The notes below the pieces were generated by a model, which worked only from the letters and a program-made list of their open reading frames with translations, was not told the origin of the DNA and did no database searches. A stretch of 64,000 bases of DNA. It comes from Komagataeibacter xylinus. Lineage in GTDB: Bacteria; Pseudomonadota; Alphaproteobacteria; Acetobacterales; Acetobacteraceae. Location of the stretch: positions 1-64,000 of the forward strand of contig NZ_QQBI01000008.1 of NCBI RefSeq assembly GCF_004302915.1, written 5' to 3'. The position numbers and the translations under genes were made by a program. Shown here piece by piece: positions 9,990-63,441 of the stretch (position 1 is the stretch's first letter; each line of letters begins with the position of its first letter).

Positions 9990-12530
9990 ATGTCACAGCG
10001 CCCCGTTCCCGCTCCTGCGGCTGACCCGTCCACACGGCCCGACTTCGTGCATGTGCGCGGCGCGCGCGAGCACAACCTCAAGGATGTCAGCGTGGACATT
10101 CCGCGTGACCGGCTGGTCGTGTTCACCGGGGTTTCAGGGTCGGGCAAGTCCTCGCTGGCCTTCGGCACGCTGTATGCGGAGGCACAGCGGCGCTACCTTG
10201 AATCGGTCTCGCCCTACGCGCGTCGGCTGTTCCGGCAGATGCCGGTGCCCGATGTCACATCCATCGAGGGGCTGCCGCCTGCCATCGCACTCCAGCAGCA
10301 GCGCGGCACGGGCACCGGGCGCTCCACCGTGGGCAGCATCACCACGCTGTCGAACCTGCTGCGCATGCTCTATTCCCGCGCGGGGCATTACCCGGCGGGG
10401 ATGCAGCGGCTGGAGGCGGAATCGTTTTCCACCAACACGCCCGAAGGCGCGTGCCCGCAATGCCACGGCCAGGGCCGCATCATGGACACGACCACCGACC
10501 TGCTGGTGCCTGATGACGGCCTCTCCATCCGCGAGCGCGCGGTCGCGGCATGGCCCACCGCGTGGCAGGGACAGAACCTGCGCGATATCCTGATCACCAA
10601 GGGCGTGGACGTGGACTGCCCCTGGCGCGACCTGCCGGAAAAAACCCGCAACTGGATCCTCTACACCGAGGAAACACCCACCTACCCCGTCTATCCCGGC
10701 CTCGACCATGCAGCCGTGCAGCGCGCGATACGCGACCACGTGCCCCCTGCCTATAACGGCACCTTTACCGGCGCGCGGCGCTATGTGCTGCACACCTTTG
10801 CCACATCGCAGAGCGCCAACATGCGCAGGCGGGCCGAGCGGTTCCTGACCGCAACGCCGTGCCCCACCTGCCATGGCGGCCGCCTCAACCCCGAGGCGCT
10901 GCGGGTCACCATCGCGGGGCTGAACATTGCCCAGCTCACCCGCCAGCCACTGGCCACCATTGCCCGCACGCTGGCCCCGCTGGCTGACGGCACGCAGCCA
11001 CCCGAGCACGCCCCGCAGGCGGGCGATGCCACCGCCATCGCCGCGCGCCGCATAGCCAACGACCTGCTCGGCCGCATTGCGGTGCTGGAGCATCTGGGCC
11101 TTGGCTACCTGCAGGCCGACCGCCCGGTTACCACGCTCTCCCTCGGCGAGTACCAACGCCTGCGGCTGGGCACGCAGATCCGCTCCAGCCTGTTTGGCGT
11201 GGTGTACGTGCTTGATGAACCCTCCAGCGGGCTGCACCCCGCCGATGCCCATAACCTGCTCGATGCGCTGGAAGGGCTGAAGCGGGCGGGCAACTCGCTG
11301 TTCATTGTCGAGCATAACCTCTACCTCATCCGCCGGGCGGACTGGATTGTCGATGTCGGCCCCGATGCGGGCACGCGCGGGGGCGAGGTGCTGTATAGCG
11401 GCCTGCCCGAGGGCCTGCGGGGGGTCAAAAACTCCCGCACCGCGCCCTATCTGTTTGCCAGCAATGCGCCGATTGCGGGTACGCCGCGTCCGGCCAAAGC
11501 GTGGCTTAAGCTTGCGGGCATTACGTGGAACAACCTGCACGACCTTACGCTCGCAATCCCGCTGGGCACGTTCGTGACCGTGACCGGCCTGTCAGGCTCG
11601 GGCAAGTCGAGCCTGGTCAGCCAGGCGCTGCCCGCCATCATGGCGCATGCGCTAGGGCAGAAACTGCCCGATGCGACAGACCCCGACACCATCGAGGACA
11701 TGCCCGAAGGCACGCCACAGGGGCAGGTTACGGAAGGTGTTAAAAAAATCAGCCGGCTGGTCATGATCGACCAGAAACCCATCGGCCGCACCCCGCGCTC
11801 CAACCTTGCCACCTATACCGGCCTGTTCGACACCATCCGCCAGATCTATGCCGCGACCGACCTGGCCAGATCGCGCGGGTATGACGCGGGTCGTTTTTCT
11901 TTCAATCTGCCAAAAGGCCGCTGCCCCACCTGCGAGGGTGCGGGCTCGGTGATGGTGGAGCTGCTGTTCCTGCCCAGCGTGTATTCCCCCTGCCCCACCT
12001 GCCACGGCACACGCTACCGGCCCGAGGTGCTGGAAGTGACCATAGGCGGCAAGTCCATTGCCGATGTGCTGGCCATGACGGTGGATGACGCCGCTGCCTT
12101 CTTTGCCCACAACCCGGCCCTGTCCGCCACGCTCGCCACGTTGCAGCAGGGCGGGCTTGGCTACCTGCGGCTGGGGCAACCCGCCACCGAGCTTTCGGGC
12201 GGCGAGGCGCAGCGCATCAAGCTTGCCACCGAGCTGCGCAAGCAGCGCCGGGGCCATACGCTCTACATTCTTGATGAACCCACCACTGGCCTGCACCCTG
12301 CCGATGTGGACCGGCTGCAGGCCCACCTGCAGTCACTGGTGGATGGCGGCCACACCGTGGTGGTGGCCGAGCACGACATGCGGGTGGCAGCCAGGAGCGA
12401 CTGGATCATCGACATGGGGCCGGGCGCGGGCGACGGGGGCGGCACGATCGTGGCTGCGGGCACGCCGCATGACGTGGCCCGTGCGAAAGGCAGCGCTACC
12501 GCGCCCTTCCTCCTGCCGCTGACCGGCTGA
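9990..12530 (+). CDS. UvrA-like ABC ATPase of the short UvrA2 class
   Basis: An 846-residue UvrA homologue with two ABC ATPase halves. Walker A motifs are GVSGSGKSS (47-55) and GLSGSGKSS. Zinc-binding CxxC modules are [23 protein letters not shown] and CPTCHGTR. Canonical UvrA has about 940 residues. Here the sequence goes from the first ATPase lobe ([11 protein letters not shown]) almost directly to the first zinc module, so the UvrB-binding domain is missing, as in UvrA2/DrrC-type proteins linked to tolerance of DNA-binding drugs. The second half has a normal LSGGE signature, but the first reads LSLGE, a substitution worth noting. The gene stands alone and ends at a full palindromic element. 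Confidence 0.88.
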
Positions 12531-12632: not shown

Positions 12633-14042
12633 TTACCCTGCCGAGGTGGGTAATACGCCCCACAGCGCCGCAACACCTGCAAAGACCAGCAGCGACGCCA
12701 CCAGCGTCATGAGGCTCCAGCTCCGCAGCCCCTCGCGCACGCTCACGCCGCACAGGCGCGTCACGATCCAGAACCCCGCATCGTTCACGTGCGACAGCGC
12801 CATGCCCCCCGCCCCCATGGCCAGCGCCATCAGCGCCAGATGGGTCTGGTCAAGGTGCAGGCGACCAATCATGGGGCCAAGGATGCCCGCCGTGGTCATC
12901 AGCGCCACCGTGGTCGGCCCCTGGGCTACGCGCAGGATCATGGTCAGCACGAAGGCCAGCACCAGCAGCGGCAGGCCGGTCGCGGCCAGCAGGCCGCCCA
13001 GCGCATCGCCCACGCCGCTGCCCACCAGCACCTGCGCAAACGCGCCCCCCGCCCCGGTAATGAGGATGATGATGGCCGTGCCCGGCAGGGCGGCCGCCAC
13101 GACATCAGACACGGTAGCCAGCGCCATGCCGCGCCGCAGCCCCAGCAGCCACGCGCACAGCAATACGTCCAGCCCCAGCGCCACGAAGGGAATCCCTGCA
13201 AAGACCAGCAGGGTGCGCACCCGCCCCGGGGCCATCAGTTCGCCCGCCAGCGTGCCCGCCACCATCAGCACCACCGGCACGGCGATGACGCCCAGGATCT
13301 CGCCTACGCTCACCGGGCTGCGCGCGGTGGCCTGCATGAAAATACCCGCCGCGTCATCAGCCGTATCCTGCCCCTGCGCAGGCGCACGGGCCTCATCCAC
13401 CACGGCGCGGATATCGGGCGCGCAGCCCAGCGGTTGCGCCATGATGGGCCGGGTCAGCACATAGGTCAGCACCGTGGCCACGGCTGCCAGCGGCAGGCCC
13501 AGCAGCAGCATGTGCCCCGCCCCCACGCCCAGCGCTGCCGCAACCGCCACGGCACCGGGGTGGGGCGGCAGCAGGGCATGGACGGTGAGCATGGTCACGG
13601 CCATGGGAATGCCGAACACGGCGGGCACGCGGCCCGTCTGCCGCGCCATGCCATAGACCAGCGGCATGAGCATGATCACGCCAACCTCGAAAAACACAGG
13701 AATGCCCACGCCAAAAGCGGCAATGACCAGCGCCAGCGGCACATGGGCGGAGCCTACGCGGCGCACCAGCGCATTCGCCACGGTGGCCGCCCCGCCCGAG
13801 AGGTCAACCATGCGCCCGATCATGGCCCCGAACGCCACGATAATGGCGATATGGCCCATGATGCGGCCCATGCTACCCTGAATGGCATCGGCCAGCCTGG
13901 CCACGGGCATGCCGGTAAGCAGGGCCACCGCCACGGCCACCACCAGCAGGGCGACGAAGGGATGCAGCCGGAGTTTGAGGATAAGCAGGAGCAGGACGGC
14001 AATGGAGCCTATGCCGGTCAGGATCAGCGCGAGCGGAGTCAT
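12633..14042 (-). CDS. GntP-family gluconate/organic acid permease
   Basis: A 469-residue polytopic protein with about 12 membrane segments. GntP-family features are the opening LILTGIGSIAVLLLLI, the region GVGIPVFFEVGVIMLMPLV and the loop LLPPHPGAVAVAAALG. These symporters bring in gluconate or related aldonic and hydroxy acids with protons, which suits an organism that oxidises sugars outside the cell. The start at 14042 (MTPLALILTG) is chosen because an upstream in-frame ATG at 14132 would add a charged, non-conserved tail. No gluconate kinase or regulator is adjacent, so the exact substrate is open. Confidence 0.87.
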   Translation of the reverse strand: MTPLALILTGIGSIAVLLLLILKLRLHPFVALLVVAVAVALLTGMPVARLADAIQGSMGRIMGHIAIIVAFGAMIGRMVDLSGGAATVANALVRRVGSAHVPLALVIAAFGVGIPVFFEVGVIMLMPLVYGMARQTGRVPAVFGIPMAVTMLTVHALLPPHPGAVAVAAALGVGAGHMLLLGLPLAAVATVLTYVLTRPIMAQPLGCAPDIRAVVDEARAPAQGQDTADDAAGIFMQATARSPVSVGEILGVIAVPVVLMVAGTLAGELMAPGRVRTLLVFAGIPFVALGLDVLLCAWLLGLRRGMALATVSDVVAAALPGTAIIILITGAGGAFAQVLVGSGVGDALGGLLAATGLPLLVLAFVLTMILRVAQGPTTVALMTTAGILGPMIGRLHLDQTHLALMALAMGAGGMALSHVNDAGFWIVTRLCGVSVREGLRSWSLMTLVASLLVFAGVAALWGVLPTSAG

Positions 14043-14312: not shown

Positions 14313-14822
14313 TTACTTCAACTTTTTTATGACGCCGGATTCATGGACGGTAATTTTTCCAATCCTGTCGCGGCCCCGGGCGTTGCAGACCAGCTCCTGC
14401 GTGGCGGGCGAGAGCATGCAGGTGCCTGTTGCCTTCTCATCATGGGACTGGCCATTGGTCACAATCTGAATTCCGTTGATGTTCTGCCCGATCGCATGAT
14501 TTTCGCTTGCTGCGGCTGAAAAGAAACCAAATATCACGACCTGCGTATTGTTGTTCCCGAATATTTCCGTGCTAACGAAAATTCTGTTATTTATACTATA
14601 TAAAGATATATTACAGGTATCAGATCGATCGTTTCCATTCTTGTATTCTATACGGAAATTGCATTTTTCATGCGTTGCAATGGAAAGCAGGTTTTTTATG
14701 TCCGGGTTGGCAAGGGCTGCCCTGATCTGGGGCACGGCCAGTTCTTCACTTGGCGTTTGCGCATAAACCGGCGACGCAACAGCCAGGCAGGGCGCTGCCA
14801 TGATCCATTGATGAAAATGCAT
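14313..14822 (-). CDS. Secreted hypothetical protein
   Basis: A 169-residue protein starting MHFHQWIMAAPCLAVASPVYA, a signal peptide with cleavage after VYA. The start at 14822 has AGGACAG upstream; an in-frame ATG at 14903 is rejected because it would bury the signal. The mature part is richer in Asn, Ile and Lys than its neighbours (EYKNGNDRSDTCNISLYSIN) and locally AT-rich, which could mean recent acquisition. Four cysteines are spread over the mature chain. No family recognised. Confidence 0.6.
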   Translation of the reverse strand: MHFHQWIMAAPCLAVASPVYAQTPSEELAVPQIRAALANPDIKNLLSIATHEKCNFRIEYKNGNDRSDTCNISLYSINNRIFVSTEIFGNNNTQVVIFGFFSAAASENHAIGQNINGIQIVTNGQSHDEKATGTCMLSPATQELVCNARGRDRIGKITVHESGVIKKLK

Positions 14823-15109
14823 GAACTGTCCTGTCACCCCATCCATTAGGAACAGCCAGTCCATACGCTGTTCCAGGCAGGCGCAGCCCTGTTGTGCTGG
14901 CAATGCTGCCAGCTGCGGCCCGCAGCAGGACAGTTGTCCCCGCGCGAATCACCCCAGGCTGGAACCAGAGGCGCGGGCTGACCCGCCTGCCCCATCCGGC
15001 ACAGCAGGACCGCCCTGCATGCAAAACATACGGGCGTGAAAAATGGCCTGAAAACCGGGGTTTTTCAGCCCCCCGGGTTGCATGCCCCAAGCGCCGCCGT
15101 TTTTCATGC

Positions 15110-15454: not shown

Positions 15455-15982
15455 TCAGCGGGCGGCCTGCCGCATGGGGTGGCGGGTGTCACCCTTTTTG
15501 GGGGCGGGTTCCGCCAGCCAGTGAATGCGGACCTGACGCAGCTCGAAATTGCGCTGGCCCTGCACGCCCATATCCCCAAACGGGTCATAGACCACGCCGG
15601 TCACATCGGCACGGCACTGCTCGTGCTGGCCGGTATCCCCACAGATCTGCTGTGCCTTGCGAAAGGAGGCTTCCTCCATCGTGGGGCCATCGAGCGGTAT
15701 GGCGCCGTTCCAGTCCACCTTGCCCGGCAGGTCGGCAATACGGAAGGTGGCGCAGTCCGCCCCGCCCGAATTGGCGGAGGTAATGGTGCACCCCTCGATA
15801 CGCACGGGCTTGCCCACATACTGCGCCGCCTGCGCCTGGAAGGAGGCGACATCAAGCGTGGGTGGCGGTACGGGCGGGACGCCATGCCCCCTGGGCGCGC
15901 GGGCCATGGCGGGTGTGGCCGCCACGCCGGTGGCCATGAGAGCCAGCCCGGCCAGCGCACCAAGATGAAAACGTCGCCTCAC
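15455..15982 (-). CDS. Secreted hypothetical protein (GTG start)
   Basis: A 175-residue protein. A GTG at 15982, preceded by GGAAGGAC about eight bases away, gives a good signal peptide (VRRRFHLGALAGLALMATG, then VAATPAMARA); the longer ATG form from 16090 would hide it. The mature part (YVGKPVRIEGCTITSANSGG, then ATFRIADLPGKVDWNGAIPL) looks like a small periplasmic beta-barrel of the OB-fold type with a possible disulphide. The C-terminus is basic. Function unknown. Confidence 0.6.
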   Translation of the reverse strand: MRRRFHLGALAGLALMATGVAATPAMARAPRGHGVPPVPPPTLDVASFQAQAAQYVGKPVRIEGCTITSANSGGADCATFRIADLPGKVDWNGAIPLDGPTMEEASFRKAQQICGDTGQHEQCRADVTGVVYDPFGDMGVQGQRNFELRQVRIHWLAEPAPKKGDTRHPMRQAAR

Positions 15983-16131
15983 GTCGTGTCGTCCTTCCGT
16001 CAAGAAATCAGCCTGCGGCTTGCATTCGGCAAGGCCATTTTTGCCATAGACACGCGGTTTGTGACCACAACGCAACGTGCGGGCAGCCATGCATGCGCGG
16101 CTGGACGGCGACTGGACGGTCGGTCAGACGA

Positions 16132-34135: not shown

Positions 34136-34780
34136 CTAACGCCGGATCCACTGCCGCCGCTCGGGCGCGCGGCGTTCCCAGCCGCGCCGCTCGAGTTCGG
34201 GGGTGCTGGCGGGAGCCGCCGGGTAGCCCACGCACAGATAGGCCACGAGTTCGAGTGCGGGGTCCATCTCCAGCACGGCCGCAACCCGCCCGGGGTCGAT
34301 GATCGAGACCCAGCCCACCCCCACCCCTGCCGCGGTCGCCGCCAGCCAGAACGTATGGATGGCCATGACGGTGGACCAGGTGGTGGTCTGCGGCATGGTC
34401 GCCCGCCCCAGTCCGCGCCCCTGGGCGGGATCGGGGTGGGAGAACACGGCCACATGGTGGGGCGCATCATCCAGCCCGGCCAGTTTCAGCCGCGCGTAGC
34501 GCAGGGCATCCGGCCCGTCACGGTCGGCCAGGGCAGCTTCGTTGCAGCGGGCAAAATCAGCCCGGACCGCAGCCCGCCGGGCCGGATCATCCACGCGCAC
34601 GAAGCGCCACGGCTCGCTCAGCCCGACCGAGGGCGCAAGGCAGGCGGTGCGCAGCAGGTCATCGAGCACGGATTCGGGCACCGGGTCGGGGCGGAAATGG
34701 CGCACATCACGCCGCCAGCGCAGCAGGTCGCGCAACTGGTCCATGAAGGGCGATGGAAATTCCGGCGGGGTAGTGGTCAT
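34136..34780 (-). CDS. bluB: 5,6-dimethylbenzimidazole synthase
   Basis: A 214-residue nitroreductase-fold protein with the BluB marks: RWRRDVRHFRPDPVPESVLD for FMN binding, PSVGLSEPWRFVRVDDPARR near the flavin, and GVGVGWVSIIDPGRVAAVLE in the C-terminal half. BluB breaks down reduced FMN with oxygen to make 5,6-dimethylbenzimidazole, the lower ligand of cobalamin. Its presence says this organism makes true B12 and agrees with the cobalamin riboswitch at 61460-61656. It sits second in a three-gene operon; its neighbours are unassigned. Confidence 0.9.
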   Translation of the reverse strand: MTTTPPEFPSPFMDQLRDLLRWRRDVRHFRPDPVPESVLDDLLRTACLAPSVGLSEPWRFVRVDDPARRAAVRADFARCNEAALADRDGPDALRYARLKLAGLDDAPHHVAVFSHPDPAQGRGLGRATMPQTTTWSTVMAIHTFWLAATAAGVGVGWVSIIDPGRVAAVLEMDPALELVAYLCVGYPAAPASTPELERRGWERRAPERRQWIRR

Positions 34781-61444: not shown

Positions 61445-61459
61445 CCTGCCCGACAAGTC

Positions 61460-61656
61460 AATGGTCCCGTGCAAACGGGTGAAAAAGGGAATGCCGTAAG
61501 TCCCGGCAGGGTATTCAGGCCCGGGGGCGCAGTCGGCAGCTGTACCCGCAACTGTAGGCGGAGAGTGCTTCATCTGGTGCCATGCCAACGGCGACCACTG
61601 GTTCCGGCCGGGAAGGGAGATGATGTGCAATGACCCGCAAGTCAGGAGACCTGCCA
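61460..61656 (+). promoter_or_regulatory. Cobalamin riboswitch
   Basis: Conserved elements appear in order: GGTCCCGTGCAAACGGGTG, then AAAAAGGGAA; the peripheral arm; GCAGCTGTACCCGCAACTGT of the core; and the B12 box CAAGTCAGGAGACCTGCC (61638-61655). This is the standard adenosylcobalamin-type aptamer arrangement. The next gene, 166 bases downstream on the same strand, is an OprB-like porin. The RNA would switch that gene off when coenzyme B12 is plentiful. The exact class (AdoCbl or MeCbl) cannot be told by eye. Confidence 0.93.
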
Positions 61657-61726
61657 TTGTCCTTTAACGATATCGCCGGGCGGGCATGACCGGAGATGGA
61701 TATAAGACCATGCGCCCTCCGAGCTG

Positions 61727-61814
61727 ACATCCCGTATGCCGTAGCAGCGACGGGCCTTTTCATTGGTCCGTCATCTTCTGGCCCTTTGGTGCCAGACCCA
61801 TCCTGACGGGATGT
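61727..61814 (+). promoter_or_regulatory. Possible expression platform of the riboswitch
   Basis: ACATCCCGT (61727-61735) is exactly complementary to ACGGGATGT (61806-61814), which ends eight bases before the porin ATG and overlaps its likely ribosome site. The same left arm can instead pair with ACGGG at 61750-61754, making a hairpin followed by CCTTTT, a weak terminator. Two mutually exclusive structures are what a switch needs. This is reading by eye, not a computed fold. Confidence 0.5.
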
Positions 61815-61821
61815 TTCCACC

Positions 61822-63441
61822 ATGAAACTGCATATTCTCCCCGCACGCCGGCAGCCCCTGTCGCGCCTGCTGCTGCTGTCGGGCGCCCTGGGCGGCGCAT
61901 ATTGCACCGCAGCCCATGCCCAGACCCAGATCGCGCTGGACCGCGCCCGCCTGGGCAACTCCACGCCACTGATCGTGCAGATCGACCCCGCCACGGTGCG
62001 CGATTCAGAACGCGCCACCGCTGAAGCGGAGGAAAAAGCCGCGGGCGACGGTGACAGGCTCGACACCAGCGGCAACCTGCTGGGCAATATGTGGGGTGCA
62101 CGGCCATGGCTGTACAAGCACGGCATCAGCTTCGACATTCAGGAAGTCGATGAAGTATGGGGCAACGGCACCGGCGGCACGCCATCGGGCAATGATGGCG
62201 CCAGTGGCTCGGGCACCGGGCCTGCCTATGATGGTGTGACCATGCCCACGCTCACCGTCGATACCGAGAAGCTGTTTGGGCTGAAGGGCGGCCTGTTCAA
62301 TGTCAGCGCATTGCAGACACGCGGGCGCTCGATCTCGCAGGATCACCTGGCCAATTTCAACCCCGTCAGCGGGTTCGAGGCCGACCGCTCCACCCGCCTG
62401 TTCGAGCTGTGGTACCAGCAGTCCTTCCTGAAAGGCAAGCTCGACGTCAAGATCGGCCAGCAGGATCTCGATACCGAATTCCTGATCAGCGATTACGCCT
62501 CGCTTTACCTCAACGCCAATTTCGGCTGGCCCATGGCGCCCTCGGTCAACCTGTATGGCGGCGGGCCATCCTGGCCGCTGTCGTCTCCCGCCATCCGCAT
62601 CCGCTACCGGCCCAGCGAGAAGTTCACCTTCATGTTTGCCGCAGCCGACGACAACCCGCCGGGCAACCGCTACAATTCTACCCCCATCCAGCAGGCCACA
62701 GGTTCCACCAGCGGGTACAATTCCGATCCGACCAGCCAGACCTATAATGGATCTAACGGTACCAACTTCAATATGGGAACCGGCGCACTGCTGATCACCG
62801 AGCTGCAATACGCGCTCAACCCCCAGCCCGCCGACATGGCGCACGCGACCACGAACCCCGGCCTGCCGGGCGTGTACAAGCTGGGCGGCTATTACGATAC
62901 CGCGAAGTTTGCCGACTACCGCTACAACAATCTGGGCCAGGCGCTCGGCAGCCCGAATGACACCACCGGCATCCCGCGCTGGGACCGGGGTAACTGGATG
63001 GTGTATGGCATCATTGACCAGATGCTCTGGCGGCCTTCCATCACATCGGCCCGGTCGGTGGGCCTGTTCGTGCGCGCCACCGGCAATAGTGGCGACCGCA
63101 ACCTGATCAGCTTCGCCATTGATGCGGGGCTGAACCTCAAGGCCCCGTTCAAGGGCCGCGACAATGACACGATCGGGCTGGGCTGGGGCATTGGGCGCGC
63201 CAGCTCGGGCGAGCGGCAGTTCGACCGCAACACGGCCCTGAGCGCCTATACCCCCGTGCAGGGCAATGAAAACCACCTTGAACTGACCTATCAGGCGCAG
63301 GTCACACCATGGATGGTGATGCAGCCTGACTTCCAGTACGTGTGGAACCCCTCGGGCGGCGTACCGGATTATGGCGTGAGCTATAACCGCCGCGTGGGCA
63401 ACGAGGCCATTTTTGGCCTGCACAGCAGCATTACGTTCTGA
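61822..63441 (+). CDS. OprB-like outer membrane porin under riboswitch control
   Basis: A 539-residue porin with a signal peptide (LLLLSGALGGAYCTAAHA, cleavage before QTQ). The mature chain has the OprB look: the short coiled-coil-like start TVRDSERATAEAEEKAAGDG, then WLYKHGISFDIQEVDEVWGN, FELWYQQSFLKGKLDVKIGQ, LDTEFLISDYASLYLNANFG, AIRIRYRPSEKFTFMFAAAD and the closing strand VGNEAIFGLHSSITF ending in Phe. OprB proteins form 16-strand sugar or small-solute channels. The cobalamin riboswitch upstream suggests uptake tied to B12 need, for example a cobalamin precursor or cobalt complex, or repression of a B12-dependent pathway. The stop overlaps the next start (TGATG). Confidence 0.87.
   Translation: MKLHILPARRQPLSRLLLLSGALGGAYCTAAHAQTQIALDRARLGNSTPLIVQIDPATVRDSERATAEAEEKAAGDGDRLDTSGNLLGNMWGARPWLYKHGISFDIQEVDEVWGNGTGGTPSGNDGASGSGTGPAYDGVTMPTLTVDTEKLFGLKGGLFNVSALQTRGRSISQDHLANFNPVSGFEADRSTRLFELWYQQSFLKGKLDVKIGQQDLDTEFLISDYASLYLNANFGWPMAPSVNLYGGGPSWPLSSPAIRIRYRPSEKFTFMFAAADDNPPGNRYNSTPIQQATGSTSGYNSDPTSQTYNGSNGTNFNMGTGALLITELQYALNPQPADMAHATTNPGLPGVYKLGGYYDTAKFADYRYNNLGQALGSPNDTTGIPRWDRGNWMVYGIIDQMLWRPSITSARSVGLFVRATGNSGDRNLISFAIDAGLNLKAPFKGRDNDTIGLGWGIGRASSGERQFDRNTALSAYTPVQGNENHLELTYQAQVTPWMVMQPDFQYVWNPSGGVPDYGVSYNRRVGNEAIFGLHSSITF

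Follow-up and report, generated by a model that had tools for sequence, protein, structure and literature searches.

Porin B (OprB; PDB 4gey) is known as a sugar porin, and we know of no link between it and a riboswitch. In Geobacter sulfurreducens, an OprB-family (PF04966) porin is under FUR control with feoAB, and entry of ferrous iron through it has been proposed from this co-regulation (PMC545781). The Synechocystis porin Slr1908, which is compared here as a porin and not as a PF04966 member, carries inorganic iron according to PMC9705863. For cobalt, a 2021 review states that confirmation of any outer-membrane receptor specific for this metal was still lacking, and describes a Novosphingobium unit in which an AdoCbl riboswitch governs a TonB-dependent receptor (a predicted cobalt receptor), NiCoT and CobW (PMC7689651). 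Coenzyme B12 represses cobG, cobW, cbtB and btuB, with a 43-fold effect on cbtBA (PMC8123684), and growth of N. hansenii SI1 on glycerol mildly upregulated cbtA1, cbtA2 and cbtB (PMC12405394).

The locus described here shares its PF04966 family with Porin B and with the G. sulfurreducens porin, but differs from the latter in having a riboswitch instead of FUR and, as proposed below, cobalt instead of iron. Like the Novosphingobium unit, it brings an outer-membrane protein together with a cobalt transporter under B12 riboswitch control, although the outer-membrane protein is an OprB-type porin rather than a TonB-dependent receptor. In the available parts of the literature searched, which also covered PMC2773004, PMC10878165 and PMC4284471 and whose scope excluded the 2003 riboswitch surveys, no report of a B12-riboswitch porin was recognised.

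The window analysed is a stretch of 64,000 nt (bases 1–64000 of a 125,575-base contig) from a Komagataeibacter xylinus genome of 3.63 Mb. It holds, at 1313–1429(–), an ALIL pseudoknot (RF01497, 89.3 bits), presumably a frameshift signal of IS3-type transposases. Among the three Rfam matches found by cmscan at gathering score was a cobalamin riboswitch aptamer (RF00174) at 61445–61672(+), which covered the complete model (positions 1–189) and, at 98.9 bits (E 1.7e-23), was far above the gathering score of 31.5. At 61639–61655(+) lies the motif AAGTCAGGAGACCTGCC (given as in the window; the pattern also occurs in related loci), which we take to be the B12 box. The aptamer ends 150 nt upstream of an OprB porin gene at 61822–63441(+), the first gene downstream. 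The original prediction of a cobalamin riboswitch in front of an OprB-type porin, an unusual client, is thereby borne out, except that the interval it gave started at 61460 and so missed the first 15 nt of the aptamer's 5′ strand. The riboswitch itself is ordinary, sharing its complete aptamer and P13/L5 kissing contact with the RF00174 riboswitches of btuB and cob operons; it is the client gene that is out of the ordinary.

Directly 3′ of the Rfam match, a hairpin at 61672–61697(+) exposes the loop GCGGG (61680–61684), which pairs in a 16-row alignment with the loop CCCGC at 61545–61549(+). We take these elements to be P13, L13 and L5, respectively, so that the P13 hairpin and L5–L13 kissing contact expected of a cobalamin riboswitch are present. 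The kissing pairs were paired in 97.5% of the cells, and a single row, from an A. pasteurianus plasmid (L065), carried a double change there (C-G to U-A), while the seven pairs of the P13 stem were kept in 16/16 rows and showed an A-U to G-C double change in five rows, all of one leader type and perhaps reflecting one single event. Together, these 12 pairs were paired in 99.0% of the cells of the 16 leaders, as compared to 38–51% when slid by 1–3 columns, a control that is biased toward the leader structures because these were derived from the window's own sequence. The two pairs with double changes in this set were equalled in 30/500 shuffles, and its covariation score in 0/500.

Further downstream, a long-range helix was identified whose 5′ arm (61727–61735(+)) is complementary to 61806–61814, just upstream of the porin start. 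This helix was paired in 95.4% of the cells of 12 chromosomal-type leaders and also appeared in the MFE fold. Moreover, the expression platform contains a covarying hairpin (61777–61796(+)) with double changes in two of its six pairs and 94.4% paired cells over 12 rows, followed by an 18-nt block, CCCATCCTGACGGGATGT (61797–61814(+)), that includes a putative Shine-Dalgarno region and is identical in 12/12 chromosomal-type leaders (alignment A1). For the 12-row platform set, the count of pairs with double changes was reached by 174/500 shuffles and is thus not above shuffles, whereas cell counts and covariation scores exceeded the shuffles in both the 12-row and 16-row sets (0/500 in both). The leader 3′ of the B12 box had a folding z of –1.35 (23/200 shuffles equally good), i.e., a modest gain only. 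Since no intrinsic terminator was found on the + strand between 61150 and 63700, transcription termination was not adopted for this leader, and we infer translational control via masking of the ribosome-binding region. The mode of control may differ in A. pasteurianus, where a terminator-like hairpin (11840–11854; one of six such sites vs. 4.2 expected) lies between riboswitch and porin, so that control there may be transcriptional.

The porin has 539 aa, with a signal peptide recognised by eye, and covers positions 3–372 of the 372-position PF04966 profile (343.2 bits, E 3.1e-102); phmmer related it to Porin B (PDB 4gey) with an E of 6e-18. OprB was the only Pfam domain found, with neither a plug nor a TonB-receptor barrel, so the protein is not of the BtuB kind. 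Its closest named relative is a porin of K. xylinus CGMCC 21569 (97% identical).

The pairing of riboswitch and porin recurs, as the original prediction had suggested examining, in other Acetobacteraceae. RF00174 and OprB each matched in 19/19 genus genomes (with at least 150 OprB matches), and among the matches listed the riboswitch–porin pair occurred in 18/19. Specifically, joining both match lists by coordinates, by hand, placed riboswitch and OprB domain in tandem on one contig in 13 genomes among the matches listed (G000, G001, G002, G004, G006, G009, G011, G012, G013, G014, G015, G017 and G018), with three copies in G004 and two in G006. In five more (G003, G005, G008, G010 and G016), the riboswitch is followed by the first part of the porin, within which the contig ends. 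No pair was seen among the RF00174 matches and contig ends of G007.

Among 65 named loci, the riboswitch lay directly upstream of the porin in 14 of the 55 that were scanned with Rfam, and three others (L099, L101 and L121) had a B12 box upstream of the porin by pattern only; 7/65 fall outside the Rfam and pattern counts, and several loci start at the porin, which leaves no upstream region to assess. Among the named carriers are K. xylinus, K. rhaeticus, K. swingsii, K. europaeus, K. oboediens, N. hansenii, N. maltaceti and G. entanii, and the pair extends into Acetobacter (A. pasteurianus and A. okinawensis). No riboswitch preceded the porin in the Zymomonas homologues L127 and L136, and no new riboswitch–porin pair was found outside Acetobacteraceae in the 20 loci scanned out of 30 that 200 genomes had yielded in a family-wide search; only L179 and L180 among these carried a riboswitch, and both seem to repeat named loci. 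On a porin tree of 63 rows, 26 of them riboswitch-linked by pattern, the riboswitch label changed six times as compared to a shuffled mean of 19.9, with long branches flagged in that tree. A single origin of the riboswitch link was thus unsupported.

The company kept by these riboswitches points to cobalt and B12. In 31 riboswitch loci, picked by score from all RF00174 matches, the first recognised gene encoded a BtuB-like TonB receptor (12), the porin (8), CobW (8) or MetE (1), two being unassigned. For the TonB receptor, the best NCBIfam match was the B12 receptor, below cutoff (227.2 vs. 599.7 bits). The window's genome has two riboswitches above cutoff, i.e., that of the porin and one before cobW–cobN, and a weak RF00174 match (24.3 bits) directly upstream of cbtA. 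A stand-alone cbtA was directly preceded by an RF00174 match in 18/19 genomes (G014 excepted), four of these matches being above gathering score. In the window's genome, cbtB (PF09489; L013:7301–7537(–)) is divergent from the cob operon riboswitch and cbtA is on another contig; the porin in the window is not adjacent to cbtAB.

Elsewhere, porin and cobalt transporter genes are neighbours. On A. pasteurianus plasmid pAPA01-011, a riboswitch (11575–11794, 95.5 bits), the porin, cbtB and cbtA follow each other on one strand, and pAP1342-3 has the same order with a riboswitch recognised by pattern only. A common porin–cbtB–cbtA transcript is only a candidate there, and a terminator-like site (13723–13742; among the six vs. 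4.2 expected on pAPA01-011) lies inside cbtB. Downstream of cbtA in A. pasteurianus locus L065, two further riboswitches (14814–15031(+) and 15841–16082(+)) precede small unknown genes. In K. medellinensis pGXY010, the porin, with its own riboswitch of 107.9 bits (G004:C7, the same record), lies beside cbtB–cbtA in a block with genes for a TonB receptor, an ABC transporter, cobyric acid synthase and MetE; a similar block surrounds the porin and cbtBA of N. hansenii p1, where the riboswitch was recognised by pattern. Genome G004 has 17 RF00174 matches in total, mostly in two similar blocks (L045:4700–18800, which is pGXY010, and L058, which is contig C3) with metE-like, TonB receptor, CobQ and unknown genes, where some riboswitches form divergent pairs. 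In A. pomorum, a porin without riboswitch is convergent to a riboswitch–cbtB–cbtA unit. By conserved linkage and by a shared type of riboswitch, the porin thus belongs with the cobalt and B12 genes.

A second copy of the porin is found in an iron-uptake setting. Among the eight OprB matches of the window's genome, the closest paralogue (contig C31) lacks a riboswitch, is 89% identical over residues 31–539, and adjoins an Iron_transport gene (PF10634) and a periplasmic binding protein gene; homologous loci name FecCD and cupredoxin/FTR1. PF10634 occurs once per genome in 19/19 genomes, and an OprB gene lies within 5 kb of it in 10/19 among the matches listed. In six genomes the PF10634 gene is at most 1.6 kb from a contig end, with a porin start at that end in G007, while G005, G010 and G013 show no OprB gene nearby among the matches listed, which are partial for G005 and G010. 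In 14/65 named loci, the porin has iron-transport genes (PF10634, FTR1 or cupredoxin homologues) in its flanks, and none of these 14 has a riboswitch directly upstream of the porin; many other non-riboswitch loci have no iron-transport genes in their available flanks. All 14 iron-linked loci also carry, near the porin, a small membrane-type protein of ~185 aa (e.g., L105:4207–4764(+) and L117:3877–4434(+)) with no Pfam match and, for L105, no NCBIfam match. Other paralogues of the window's genome adjoin dihydroxyacetone kinase and MIP channel genes (C5) or an MFS sugar transporter gene (C13), or lie near a VIT1 gene (C38). A VIT1-family gene lies near a third type of OprB porin (L176:2070–2792(–)), and the same gene accompanies this porin type in nine named loci.

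The riboswitch and iron-locus copies of K. xylinus CGMCC 21569 are identical at 97.3% of their bases and at 90.4% of their fourfold sites, whereas between the window's genome and this strain fourfold agreement is 78.9% for the riboswitch copies and 65.0% for the iron-locus copies. Within-strain agreement likewise exceeds the between-species values in K. swingsii (80.7%) and K. rhaeticus (74.1%), and slightly so in K. melomenusus (77.2 vs. at most 74.8), whereas the window's own pair (76.9%) is above the iron-locus value and below the riboswitch-copy value. Plasmid copies depart from this pattern (51.0% in FXV3). On the porin tree, the CGMCC iron-locus copy groups with the riboswitch copies. 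In some strains the copies thus look homogenised by gene conversion, which leaves a pore common to both, with distinct leader and signal peptide. A cobalt-specialised barrel was rejected because of this sequence similarity and because the two copies in the window's genome are alike in charge (49 acidic residues each; 39 and 41 basic residues).

We put the probability at roughly 0.6 that the riboswitch–porin unit is a metal-linked OprB channel, induced at low B12, that raises Co2+ entry for CbtA/CbtB. By analogy with known homologues, B12 would repress the porin: with ligand bound and the P13/L5 kissing contact formed, the downstream leader would fold over the ribosome-binding region, so that the porin would be made at low intracellular cobalamin. 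The porin would represent a clade of OprB-family channels that are connected with the uptake of transition metals, one copy being linked to iron and the other to B12 shortage. As judged from its genomic setting, the window's porin (61822–63441) is proposed to let cobalt into the periplasm, either as the free ion or in a small chelate; CbtA/CbtB would then carry Co2+ inward, and CobN would insert it into the corrin ring. Against this cobalt reading count the distance of the window's porin from cbtAB, the absence of the pair from the matches of G007, the modest folding gain of the leader, the terminator-like hairpin in the A. pasteurianus leader and the closeness of the barrel to the iron-locus copy. 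Ordinary porins may, besides, let hydrated Co2+ through in any case, and no porin mutant of Anabaena was cobalt-resistant (PMC9705863).

The original prediction had left open whether such a channel admits a cobalamin precursor or a cobalt complex; the linkage with cbtBA and the absence of a BtuB-like receptor match (E 1e-30) in the window's genome favour the latter. Salvage of corrinoids, or of B12 precursors (cobinamide, lower-ligand bases), through the porin would suit its B12 control, and in N. hansenii JCM 7643 the riboswitch–porin unit is directly followed by a riboswitch–TonB receptor–ABC unit. Nevertheless, we regard salvage as quite unlikely, since corrinoids exceed the limits of ordinary porins, nine of the ten genomes without a BtuB-like receptor match have the riboswitch–porin (such a match occurs in 9/19 genomes at E 1e-30), and bluB lies in the window, as originally noted (34136–34780, minus strand; TIGR02476, 244.9 bits vs. 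cutoff 150), so that the host can probably supply the lower ligand itself.

B12 shortage might instead merely raise outer-membrane permeability through a general small-solute channel with no metal preference. Porins are usually unspecific, and the signs of gene conversion with a non-riboswitch copy and the six label changes on the tree fit this as well. The scanned loci, however, tie riboswitch and non-riboswitch copies to cobalt or iron, with many further loci showing neither, and we hold a purely general channel to be unlikely. The originally suggested channel for sugars or diols, with a link to B12-dependent catabolism, draws on the Pfam family name and the Porin B relative, but it is highly improbable: the OprB genes beside glycerol or sugar genes (C5 and C13) are distant paralogues, only 22–23% identical in the OprB domain, and none of the 19 genomes showed a match to the large subunit of diol dehydratase (PF02286), a weak search as every control genome was silent too.

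Building on the cobalt-entry reading, we tentatively suggest that acetic acid bacteria keep one metal porin under two switches, i.e., an iron-locus copy and a B12-riboswitch copy, homogenised by conversion in some lineages and with distinct leaders and signal peptides; metals may then enter this sugar-type pore as chelates of self-secreted gluconate or ketogluconate. For the family, the locus is a warning against reading 'carbohydrate porin' annotations literally. If true, the two-switch reading would add a cobalt-serving outer-membrane porin under RNA control, without precedent in the literature searched. As the linkage of a riboswitch porin with cbtBA occurs in vinegar and cellulose bacteria, which are easy to handle, the crossing of the outer membrane by cobalt becomes directly testable.
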